From positions 1-34,400 of the forward strand of contig JAADFF010000046.1 in assembly GCA_013153035.1 (NCBI GenBank): a stretch of 34,400 nucleotides of DNA, written 5' to 3'. The DNA is from Dictyoglomota bacterium (GTDB lineage: Bacteria; Coprothermobacterota; Coprothermobacteria; Coprothermobacterales; JAADFF01). The stretch's first letter is position 1, and each line of letters starts with the position of its first letter. This document shows, piece after piece, positions 8,090 through 30,886 of this stretch. The position numbers and the translations under genes were made by a program. The notes below the pieces were generated by a model that saw only the letters and a list, made by a program, of their open reading frames with translations, was not told the origin of the DNA and searched no databases.

Positions 8090-8116
8090 GGGGGAGAGAT
8101 TATCTCCCCCTTTTTT
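8090..8116 (+). terminator. Intrinsic terminator after pnp
   Basis: GGGGGAGA (8090-8097) pairs perfectly with TCTCCCCC (8103-8110) around GATTA, followed by six T residues. It begins 19 bases after the pnp stop. Confidence 0.95.
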
Positions 8117-9161: not shown

Positions 9162-10823
9162 ATGGTTAGATGGATTGTGATTAGTGGTATAGATGAAGTA
9201 GGTAGAAATTGCCATTTGCTAGAGACAGATGATGAATTGTATATTGTTGATTGTGGTGTGAGATTTGGTACACTAAAAGAACCAGGTATAGAATATATCA
9301 TTCCTGATTTTTCCTATATTGTAGAGAATGCCGATAAGTTAAAAGGGGCATTTTTCTCTCACGCTCACGAAGACCATATAGGAGCTGTCCCATATCTTTT
9401 AGAAGCTTTGAAAGGAAAACTAAATCGTCTAGATATATACAGCGCTCCACTGACTTTAGAGATGCTTAAAGACTATGTGGGTGGGCATCATGGCATAGCT
9501 GTGAATATGCGAGCTATACATCCTCGAGAGGAAATTCGTATATCACATAACTTAAGTGTTTTACCGATACACGTCAATCATAGTATTCCCCATGCCTTGT
9601 CTTTGGCTTTTTATACGAAAGAGGGAAAAATCATATATACCGGTGATTTTAAAATAGATCAAAATCATCCTACAATGGAAACAACTGATCTTCATACCTT
9701 CGCACGACTTGGGGAAGAAGGAGTAAAACTACTTCTTTCTGATAGTACCAATGCCGATGAACCGGGCTTTGGTACTTCTGAGATGAAGGTCAGAGAAGGA
9801 TTAGAAAAGGTTTTTGCTACATATACAGATAGAAGAATTATCATTAGTGTATTTGCTTCTCATGTTAGTCGAATTGAACTTATTATGAGTCTCGCTAAGA
9901 AATATGGTAGGGTAGTAGCAGTTGATGGTAGGGGAATTGTAAAGATTACCCAACTGTCACGAAAATTAGGTTTTCTCGCCGACTATGACGATATTATTGT
10001 CTCTGTATCTGATGCCCTAGCATTGCCACCTGAATCTCAGGTTATATTAAGCACGGGCACTCAGGGAGAACCCTTATCTGCCCTAACTCGTATGGCATAT
10101 GATAAACATAGATTTATCAAACTTCAACCGGAAGATGTTGTTGTTATATCTGCTGACCCGATTCCCGGCAATGAAAGAGCTATATTTGACGTTATCAATC
10201 GTCTGTTTAAGAAAGGAGTAGAGGTTGTATACTCGGAATATTTTCTTGTACATGCTTCGGGTCACGCTTCTATGGAGGAACTGAGATTGATGCTTAATTT
10301 AGTAAGACCTGAATACTTTGTACCCATACATGGTGAAAGAAGACAATTGGTATCTCATAAAAAACTTGCAATAGAAACGAGGGCAGTTAAGGAAGATAAC
10401 GTATATCTTTTAGAGCGAGGAGATGCTATAAGGTTCGAAGACGGTAAGGCTACTATAGAGAAAGAAGTGGCTTCAGCTAGAGAAATTCTCGTTGATGGCG
10501 GGGTTGTTGATATTTCTACTCAAGTTGTAAGTCAGCGTATGGAGCTTGCAAAGGATGGTATTATCATAGCTATCTTTACACTTGACAGGAGAAATAAAGC
10601 CAAACTCCAAGATCTTGTTGTTAAAGGGGCTTATGTAGGTGATGAAAAAGAACTTCAGAGTCTTAAACAGTACATATCATCGGCAGCAGGTGAAATTGTT
10701 TCTCGACCTGATCTAACAATTAAGCAGAAAGAGGATATGATGAAAGAAAAAATAGCATCAAAGCTGGCATCTAAATGGAGGCAAAAGCCTCATATAGAAG
10801 TCAGAGTTATACCTGTTCATTAG
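9162..10823 (+). CDS. rnj: Ribonuclease J
   Basis: RNase J combines endonuclease and 5'-to-3' exonuclease activity and matures or degrades RNA. The 553-residue protein has the metallo-beta-lactamase motif SHAHEDHIGA (His67, His69, Asp71, His72), His140 in HVNHSIPHAL, Asp162 in YTGDFKID, and the beta-CASP motifs including DSTNADEPG, LSTGTQGEP and HASGHAS, then PIHGERRQL and a C-terminal domain. It starts two bases after the UDG stop. Its stop codon is the first three bases of the rightmost strand of a perfect palindrome at 10821-10856, and its last 17 bases overlap the convergent TIM-barrel gene. Confidence 0.96.
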   Translation: MVRWIVISGIDEVGRNCHLLETDDELYIVDCGVRFGTLKEPGIEYIIPDFSYIVENADKLKGAFFSHAHEDHIGAVPYLLEALKGKLNRLDIYSAPLTLEMLKDYVGGHHGIAVNMRAIHPREEIRISHNLSVLPIHVNHSIPHALSLAFYTKEGKIIYTGDFKIDQNHPTMETTDLHTFARLGEEGVKLLLSDSTNADEPGFGTSEMKVREGLEKVFATYTDRRIIISVFASHVSRIELIMSLAKKYGRVVAVDGRGIVKITQLSRKLGFLADYDDIIVSVSDALALPPESQVILSTGTQGEPLSALTRMAYDKHRFIKLQPEDVVVISADPIPGNERAIFDVINRLFKKGVEVVYSEYFLVHASGHASMEELRLMLNLVRPEYFVPIHGERRQLVSHKKLAIETRAVKEDNVYLLERGDAIRFEDGKATIEKEVASAREILVDGGVVDISTQVVSQRMELAKDGIIIAIFTLDRRNKAKLQDLVVKGAYVGDEKELQSLKQYISSAAGEIVSRPDLTIKQKEDMMKEKIASKLASKWRQKPHIEVRVIPVH

Positions 10824-11595
10824 AGAGCAGAGAGCGTATACGCTCTCTGCTCTCTATAAAGTCTTCAATATCGTTGAATTCTCTAATCTCCAGTAGTATG
10901 ATTCTCCCTTTTAGAAATGGAATAAGTTTATTCCAATCTACAGTGCCATGTCCTATAGGTTTGTGCTCATCGTATTTCCCATTATTATCGTGAGCATGAA
11001 TGTACTTAATACGTTCAACAACATCATAGGCATTTCTCATACCGTCAAAGTTCCATCTCATTGTATTGGCATGTCCTACATCGAGGCATATACCGGCGCT
11101 GGGAAATTTTCTTACAAATGCTATGAAGCTATCAAGTCGTGAAAACAACTCTCTTTTTACCCCATTTTCTATAAGAAGAGTGGTACCTGTTATTGAGGCC
11201 ACTTGAAGTAAACGATAAATAGAATCTTCTGAAGATGACATGTTAATGTGTGAAAAATCTACAGATTTTGTACCAGTAGGTTTGCCTGTATGTACCACGG
11301 CGAGGCGTGCTCCTATTCGCCTCGCCGTGATTAGTGCTCGTGTTGATAGCTCCAGTGATACCCGTCGAATATCTGGGTTTGCACTAGCAATGTTCATATC
11401 AAGATATGGTAGATGCACTGAAAGTTTTAGATGAGTATCCTTGAAAAATCGATAAGTTTCTTCTATCCCATTTTCTGATAGTAAAACAAGCCCATCTCCC
11501 CATAGCTCAACCCCATCAAAGCCATATTCGAGTGCCAGTTTAGCCGTTTCTATCCCTTGTTTGTCACCAAATGATGAAGCGGGGAGAAAGAACAT
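10807..11595 (-). CDS. Endonuclease IV / xylose isomerase-type TIM-barrel protein
   Basis: This 262-residue protein has the TIM-barrel fold of the AP-endonuclease-2 superfamily. Likely metal ligands are seen in order: the Glu of GVELW, His in LSVHLP, His in VVHTG, Glu in LLIENG, Asp and His in CLDVGHAN, HAHDN, and Glu in ILLEIREF. The family includes sugar epimerases, isomerases and true AP endonucleases; which one cannot be decided, though the short length favours a sugar or sugar-acid isomerase. A good SD (AGAGGAAGG) precedes the ATG. It follows the cupin gene by four bases. Its last codons are made of the 36-bp palindrome, and a second perfect inverted repeat lies at 11296-11329. Confidence 0.8.
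   Translation of the reverse strand: MFFLPASSFGDKQGIETAKLALEYGFDGVELWGDGLVLLSENGIEETYRFFKDTHLKLSVHLPYLDMNIASANPDIRRVSLELSTRALITARRIGARLAVVHTGKPTGTKSVDFSHINMSSSEDSIYRLLQVASITGTTLLIENGVKRELFSRLDSFIAFVRKFPSAGICLDVGHANTMRWNFDGMRNAYDVVERIKYIHAHDNNGKYDEHKPIGHGTVDWNKLIPFLKGRIILLEIREFNDIEDFIESRERIRSLLSNEQV
10821..10856. repeat. Perfect 36-bp palindrome at the convergent rnj / TIM-barrel gene ends
   Basis: The half-site TAGAGAGCAGAGAGCGTA (10821-10838) is followed directly by its exact reverse complement (10839-10856). As RNA either strand could form a 16-bp stem with a TATA loop. It starts at the rnj stop codon and codes for the ESRERIRSLL tail of the minus-strand protein. No T-tract follows on either strand, so it lacks the second half of a standard intrinsic terminator. 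Confidence 0.95.
11296..11329. repeat. Perfect 12-bp inverted repeat inside the TIM-barrel gene
   Basis: CACGGCGAGGCG (11296-11307) and its exact reverse complement (11318-11329) flank a 10-base loop. The arms are almost pure G/C in a gene otherwise near 40% G+C and encode, on the minus strand, TARRIGARLAV with rare CGC, CTC and GCC codons. No T-run follows. Confidence 0.9.
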
Positions 11596-27250: not shown

Positions 27251-27280
27251 GGGGTGGGGTAGACCCCACCCCTTATTTAT
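27251..27280 (+). terminator. Intrinsic terminator after eno
   Basis: GGGGTGGGG (27251-27259) pairs with CCCCACCCC (27264-27272) around TAGA, followed by TTATTTAT. The stem is strong; the T-tract is interrupted, so some readthrough to the next gene, only 26 bases away, is possible. Confidence 0.85.
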
Positions 27281-27298: not shown

Positions 27299-28492
27299 GT
27301 GGGAAAGTTTCTCATGAATGAAGAAGTAGATATATTATCTGGTCTCTCAACAGATGCCTATTTTCTTAGAACAGAAGAGGTCCTTGATGGTTTAAAACAC
27401 TATCCACAAGTGGCAATGGAGTTACATACTAAATCATTTCCATCTAAAGATTACGGCTTTGGTATTGTTGCAGGTTTATGGGAGATTGTTAAGCTTCTTG
27501 AGGGATTTCCTGTGGATATATATATGATTCCAGAGGGTAGTGTGTTTTTCCCCGGTGAACCCGTGATGTATATCGTTGGAAATTATAGGAACTTCTTGAG
27601 GTATGAAACAGCTATCATCGGTTTTGTATCTTCCATGAGCGCCATAGCCACTAAAGCTGCCCGTATCAAGCTTGCTGCGGAAAACAAACCTGTTTTTTCC
27701 TTTGGAACAAGAAGGGTACATCCCGCTATTGCACCAGCAGTGGAATATGCATCCTATATAGGTGGAGTTGATGGAGTTAGCAATGTTTCGGGAGCTAGAA
27801 AAATTGGTATTAAAGCTATAGGAACAATGCCACATGCACTTATACTCGTCATGTCTGATCCTATAGAAGCTTTTATAGCATTTGATAAGTTTGTAGATCC
27901 TTCTGTACCCCGTATAGCTCTTGTAGATACATATGGTTATCCATTGAAAGAAACAGTAGAGGCCGCTAAAGTACTAAAAGATAAGCTGTATGGTGTTCGT
28001 ATTGATACAAAAGACTTTATACACATTATTGATATCATTCGCTGGGAATTAAAAAGATTAGGCTATGACAATGTAAAGATCACGCTTAGTGGTGGGCTAG
28101 ACGAGTTTACTGTAAACAAATACAAAGATTTAATTGATTCTTTTGGTGTAGGTACCCGTCTTGCTTCTGCCCGGGTGTTTGATTTTGCATTAAAAATAGT
28201 TGAAGTCAATGGTCAACCCAAGGCAAAGGTTAGCAATTACCCAGGGCAAAAAAGAATATATAGGAGAGTAGGGGCAGGACATATTGAAGACATTGTGAAA
28301 TTGGCATCTTCCCAACCACCTCAGGAATATAAACCCCTTATGAAGCAAGTCATGAAAAAGGGTATTATTATAGAAAATATACCAACGCCCCAAGACATTA
28401 GAGAGCATGTTAAAAAGGAACTTGAGAATCTTCCCTTTACGTATAAGGCCCTTGAGTTCTCAGAAAAATATCCTGTGATATTTGAACCCTAA
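27299..28492 (+). CDS. pncB: Nicotinate phosphoribosyltransferase
   Basis: The 397-residue protein matches the archaeal/short type of nicotinate phosphoribosyltransferase, which makes nicotinate mononucleotide in NAD salvage. Visible motifs are STDAYFLRTEEVL at the start, SFGTRRVHPAIAPAVEYASYIGG (phosphoribosyl site), GTMPHAL, VDTYGYPLKE, IDTKDF and LSGGLDE, in family order. The start is GTG 27299 with AAGGGAGGG upstream. No promoter was found in the 26 bases after the eno terminator, so expression may depend on readthrough. The stop codon interlocks with that of the convergent trkA gene (overlap 28489-28492). Confidence 0.88.
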   Translation: MGKFLMNEEVDILSGLSTDAYFLRTEEVLDGLKHYPQVAMELHTKSFPSKDYGFGIVAGLWEIVKLLEGFPVDIYMIPEGSVFFPGEPVMYIVGNYRNFLRYETAIIGFVSSMSAIATKAARIKLAAENKPVFSFGTRRVHPAIAPAVEYASYIGGVDGVSNVSGARKIGIKAIGTMPHALILVMSDPIEAFIAFDKFVDPSVPRIALVDTYGYPLKETVEAAKVLKDKLYGVRIDTKDFIHIIDIIRWELKRLGYDNVKITLSGGLDEFTVNKYKDLIDSFGVGTRLASARVFDFALKIVEVNGQPKAKVSNYPGQKRIYRRVGAGHIEDIVKLASSQPPQEYKPLMKQVMKKGIIIENIPTPQDIREHVKKELENLPFTYKALEFSEKYPVIFEP

Positions 28493-30848: not shown

Positions 30849-30886
30849 AAATAAAGGCCCCCATGAATATGGGGGCTGTTGTTTGT
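30847..30886. terminator. Bidirectional terminator between the recombinase and pilin genes
   Basis: GCCCCCAT (30857-30864) pairs with ATGGGGGC (30869-30876) around GAAT. On the minus strand the stem is followed by CTTTATTTTT, a good tail for the pilin operon; on the plus strand TGTTGTTTGTT is a weaker one for the recombinase. Confidence 0.88.

Follow-up and report, generated by a model that had tools for sequence, protein, structure and literature searches.

The 36 bp palindrome at which the RNase J gene (rnj) meets a convergent xylose isomerase-like TIM-barrel gene is probably a shared bidirectional hairpin that serves as the mRNA 3' end of both genes. The palindrome lies in a window (the whole stretch of DNA analysed) of 34,400 nucleotides, positions 1 to 34,400 of contig JAADFF010000046.1, and the features of the junction are listed in Table 1. 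The comparison of sequences shows the hairpin itself, where it sits and that one relative has kept it, and indirect signs suggest that the hairpin is very probably functional.

Table 1. Features at the junction of rnj and the TIM-barrel gene (window positions)
Feature	Position	Strand	Basis
RNase J gene (rnj), 553 aa; the palindrome opens with the TAG stop of the gene (10821-10823)	9162..10823	+	Pfam RNase_J_b_CASP (3.1e-40), RMMBL, RNase_J_C
Xylose isomerase-like TIM-barrel gene, 262 aa	10807..11595	-	Pfam AP_endonuc_2 (1.8e-31), residues 19-252
Overlap of the rnj and TIM-barrel coding sequences, 17 bp	10807..10823	.	ORF coordinates
Perfect 36 bp palindrome; the RNA of both strands forms a 16 bp stem with a 4 nt loop	10821..10856	.	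Repeat search, fold, genome scan

The palindrome and the two coding ends

The initial annotation had described an exact 36 bp repeat that has no spacer and begins at the rnj TAG, and both the repeat search of the window and the ORF coordinates confirm this (10821-10856; two 18 nt arms, 0 nt spacer). Among the 1.42 Mb (99%) that were scanned of the 1.43 Mb draft genome (94 contigs, 94% complete), this is the longest perfect inverted repeat with a loop of up to 8. The predicted RNA folds with -29.8 kcal/mol, which none of 200 dinucleotide shuffles equalled, and the z-scores for the two strands are -6.8 and -7.1. Chance is ruled out as the origin of the palindrome.

The palindrome overlaps the rnj stop codon and sits wholly within the TIM-barrel coding sequence, whose frame runs through all of it as I247-N259. 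The initial annotation had the palindrome supply the last codons of the minus-strand gene, which is wrong: three codons and the stop lie further on. The TIM-barrel stop codon is at 10807-10809 and the stem ends at 10821, which places the stop 12-14 nt past the stem. The residues after the stem (SNEQV here, SYFNE in a relative of the same genus) are not conserved, and distant homologues finish near that point.

The TIM-barrel protein of the relative, with the C-terminal end ESREKILSLLSYFNE, has the tail ESREKILSLL, and distant homologues from other lineages (about 26-30% identity) finish in the same helix (KSMERLKELLQ, RSLEYVSKLL, ISLENLKRILAD). Judged from these homologues, the tail is the normal C-terminal helix of the family, and the hairpin was written into a pre-existing coding end and did not create the tail. 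Since the tail is the usual helix, the TIM-barrel frame is not newly extended; by the test that the initial annotation itself had set, this refutes its suggestion of a recent template switch that lengthened the minus-strand frame.

The palindrome is flanked by no T-tract. Each direction has two T in the eight bases beyond the arm, and the U-tract immediately 3' of the stem that characterizes a canonical intrinsic (Rho-independent) terminator is missing. Pure intrinsic termination at the palindrome is therefore doubtful. The junction does have a stable stem without a U-trail near a stop codon, which is the mark of U-less (I-shaped) elements, and a stable inverted repeat at the point where two convergent genes meet.

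Hairpins at gene ends across the genome

The best stem was scored at every gene junction, and scores of at least 24 were counted as strong. The 1393 genes were called genome-wide with a simple ORF and codon-usage script, and a few of the overlapping junctions may involve spurious genes. Strong hairpins are present at 47 of 104 convergent junctions and 50 of 914 tandem junctions (Fisher p = 2e-25 for the convergent excess), and at none of the 95 divergent junctions or the 312 coding controls inside genes. The same test on six stretches sampled from E. coli K-12 found a strong hairpin at 14 of 33 convergent pairs. Additionally, in every bacterium studied, stem-loops favour the intergenic regions between convergent genes (PMC1590033). 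Shared hairpins at convergent junctions are therefore ordinary.

These counts bear on the proposal that the element has a special link to RNase J, for example as a site of cleavage by the enzyme itself. Dozens of unrelated convergent pairs end in the same kind of hairpin, and most of the other bacteria sampled have no strong hairpin at the 3' end of rnj. Self-cleavage or autoregulation by RNase J was rejected on these grounds; because unrelated pairs carry the same kind of hairpin, a special role for RNase J is not needed, and the proposed link is unsupported.

Genome-wide, purines make up 76-79% of the 5' arms of hairpins at gene ends (typically AAAGGGG...CCCCTTT), in comparison with 58% in the E. 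coli sample; on both strands the 5' arm is thus rich in purines and the 3' arm in pyrimidines. Within the window there are ordinary hairpins with T-rich tails at 8090-8110 and 30857-30876, the latter between convergent genes and T-rich on both sides, so the organism also has canonical terminators. The convergent pair that overlaps by its stop codons over 4 nt at 28489-28492 has no strong hairpin (best score 15) and is a natural contrast to the rnj/TIM-barrel pair. There is also an inverted repeat, GGGGTGGGGT / ACCCCACCCC, in the gap between tandem genes at 27251-27272. Elsewhere in the genome, L114:1034-1070 holds AGTTATCCACAG...CTGTGGATAACTGTGGATAAGT, sequences that resemble DnaA boxes and form an inverted set; this is possibly the replication origin region.

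What sets the rnj/TIM-barrel hairpin apart is its U-poor, coding-embedded placement, which is unusual. Hairpins that overlap coding sequence by at least 10 nt have on average 4.1 T in eight bases on their richer side and 2.25 on their poorer side, in comparison with 5.3 and 3.4 for all others and a background of about 2.2-2.4. Tight junctions (overlap, or a gap of at most 4 nt) have a strong stem, here a score of at least 22, in 10 of 45 cases, against 0 of 11 in the E. coli sample. With p = 0.18 (Fisher), this difference does not establish coding-overlap hairpins as a speciality of the lineage. Five of the 10 tight-junction hairpins are centred on overlapping stops (L135:258-289, L135:6716-6737, L150:7275-7308, L155:7074-7107 and L157:17824-17851), with both stops in the loop or palindrome centre and with arms that are coding. 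These five further junctions offer natural material for studying how termination, the collision of polymerases and translation affect one another where there is no untranslated space.

The scarcity of U bears on the main alternative to shared termination, in which the hairpin is purely a block to exonucleases: transcripts would read through into the opposite gene and would then be trimmed by 3'-5' exonucleases back to the protective stem, which itself does not terminate. The palindrome without a U-tract and the low T content of the coding-overlapping hairpins as a group are as this would predict, and co-transcriptional folding of hairpins is repressed by ribosomes near a stop codon (PMC4824070). 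However, the preference for convergent over tandem junctions suits shared termination better, although many tandem ends lie inside operons, and the stem of the relative is followed in one direction by a T-rich run. We consider a hairpin that only stabilizes 3' ends rather unlikely.

Conservation of the hairpin in a relative

The same junction was found in one genome of the same genus (L003, JAMORD010000038.1; about 124 kb of its DNA was compared), with approximately 78% DNA identity around it. The arms of its stem, AGAGAGTAGGGAGAGAA / TTTTCTCCCTACTCTCT, differ in their letters from those here, but all 17 of 17 pairs are kept: 12 are unchanged, four are double substitutions and one is a G-U pair. 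When the partner columns were slid as a control, 0-1 double changes were seen in place of four. The shuffle control for covariation (35/500) is weak, with two sequences only, and the covariation between the two genomes of the genus is suggestive only. Six orthologous convergent junctions could be compared; five of them have a hairpin here, and all five have one in the relative. An assembly artefact was rejected, because the hairpin recurs, in other letters, in the relative, which was assembled independently.

Some details of the junction differ between the two species. The rnj stop of the relative precedes the stem by a few bases and is not inside it, so in this comparison of two genomes the fusion of hairpin and stop codon is not conserved. 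The palindrome of the relative has a short loop where there is no spacer here. Directly after its stem, in the TIM-barrel direction only, there is a T-rich TATTTT, which is removed here by an in-frame 6 nt difference. The statement in the initial annotation that T-tracts are lacking thus holds for this species but not for the TIM-barrel direction of the relative, and its view that this is not a normal bidirectional intrinsic terminator needs qualifying, since the TATTTT brings the relative's hairpin nearer to an ordinary bidirectional terminator than was then thought.

The perfect two-fold symmetry without a spacer had suggested a site for a dimeric DNA-binding protein. The half-site has no further copy in the genome within three mismatches, a count that the initial annotation had called for, and the centre and both half-sites are altered in the relative while their complementarity is kept. 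A half-site sequence that is conserved or recurrent, as expected of a protein-binding palindrome, was thus not found, and the location is a 3' end and not a promoter. Pairing that is kept while the letters change favours an RNA hairpin, and a protein site is extremely unlikely.

Template-switch repair could also keep the arms complementary. The palindrome might then have no function and be left over from template switching in replication (quasi-palindrome correction), for which perfection with zero spacer here and a short loop in the relative are the expected products, and which could create matched changes as well. Template switching should not choose convergent junctions, yet the hairpins do, and the TIM-barrel frame is not newly extended. 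We regard such an origin without function as very unlikely.

The stop of the TIM-barrel gene lies past the stem in the relative too (about 13-15 nt, with the TATTTT run adjoining the stem). Because the two species agree in this, a TIM-barrel mRNA whose 3' end is formed at the stem would be a non-stop message. The hairpin may therefore resemble the one at the coding end of arfA: the stop codon would be lost once the transcript terminated, was cut by RNase III or was trimmed at the stem, and the protein would be tagged or limited by trans-translation. In only four of 110 hairpin-gene pairings in the genome does the stop codon fall at the end of the 3' arm or beyond it; of these, the TIM-barrel gene is the most extreme. 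The genome has a tmRNA gene and also a gene like that of RNase III, which scores below the curated cut-off of its family; the residues beyond the stem are not conserved and distant homologues finish near there, and arfA / mscL is a precedent (PMC10070815). However, for most hairpins of this class the stop codon precedes the stem or falls within the 5' arm or the loop, and the placement here may be accidental. We think it unlikely that the hairpin works in this way. It is likewise improbable that there is a genus-wide class of convergent pairs ending in coding-built hairpins in which the rnj/TIM-barrel hairpin routinely makes the TIM-barrel mRNA non-stop and trans-translation controls the protein. 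If true, a device like that of arfA would operate in the gene of an unrelated enzyme, next to the gene of a ribonuclease.

Probable shared 3' ends and known systems

The shared bidirectional 3'-end hairpin is supported by position, by the genome-wide enrichment and by the covariation, and it corresponds to the shared 3'-end block that was among the candidate roles first proposed. We infer that the hairpin terminates transcription or protects 3' ends, and that both mRNAs would end in the palindrome. Transcription from either side would form a stem of 15-16 bp, which may stall or backstop RNA polymerase and so set the termination point where two polymerases meet, possibly with the help of Rho, for which the genome has a gene. 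The stem would then protect the new 3' ends against exonucleases. Against a shared terminator, both flanks here lack a T-tract and the stem lies within the reading frame in the TIM-barrel direction; terminators near or ahead of a stop codon are repressed by translating ribosomes (PMC4824070). A head-on polymerase collision positioned by the hairpin could, by analogy, work with a weak or absent U-tract. In a convergent E. coli pair, a native hairpin positions such collisions and shortens the transcripts from both sides, and it raises the half-life of the collided RNAP complex from 6 to 150 min (PMC13082048).

Taken together, the rnj/TIM-barrel hairpin belongs to the known class of bidirectional hairpins at convergent junctions, and its coding-embedded placement is unusual within it. 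It suggests how, where genes are packed tightly, a signal for 3' ends can be embedded in the coding ends of two opposing genes and maintained through paired substitutions.

The closest systems are bidirectional terminators at which a hairpin between convergent genes positions the head-on collision of RNAP, such as that of ynaJ-uspE in E. coli (Ju/Li/Liu 2019 and Wang 2023, both cited in PMC13082048). There, as is proposed here, one hairpin between convergent genes acts on the transcripts of both sides, and as here such hairpins are found at a large share of convergent pairs. In contrast, the present hairpin overlaps one stop and is wholly inside the coding sequence of the other gene.

The U-less 'I-shaped' elements of the GeSTer nomenclature in mycobacteria are alike in having a stable stem near the stop and no U-trail. 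However, they were described from GC-rich genomes, the one tested worked in one orientation only, and their termination activity is disputed (PMC5335608).

In E. coli, arfA and mscL are likewise arranged tail to tail, and the coding end of arfA is a stem-loop antisense to the 3' region of the other gene; RNase III cleavage, which removes the stop codon, has been shown for arfA only. The genes are unrelated to those here, and the arfA stem is deeper within the coding sequence (PMC10070815). Finally, in the covarying intrinsic terminators of B. cereus, bidirectional ones included, compensatory changes keep the stem and convergent genes share one stem, as in the present case; those terminators, in contrast, are predicted to be canonical and lie mostly outside coding sequence (PMC5381666).
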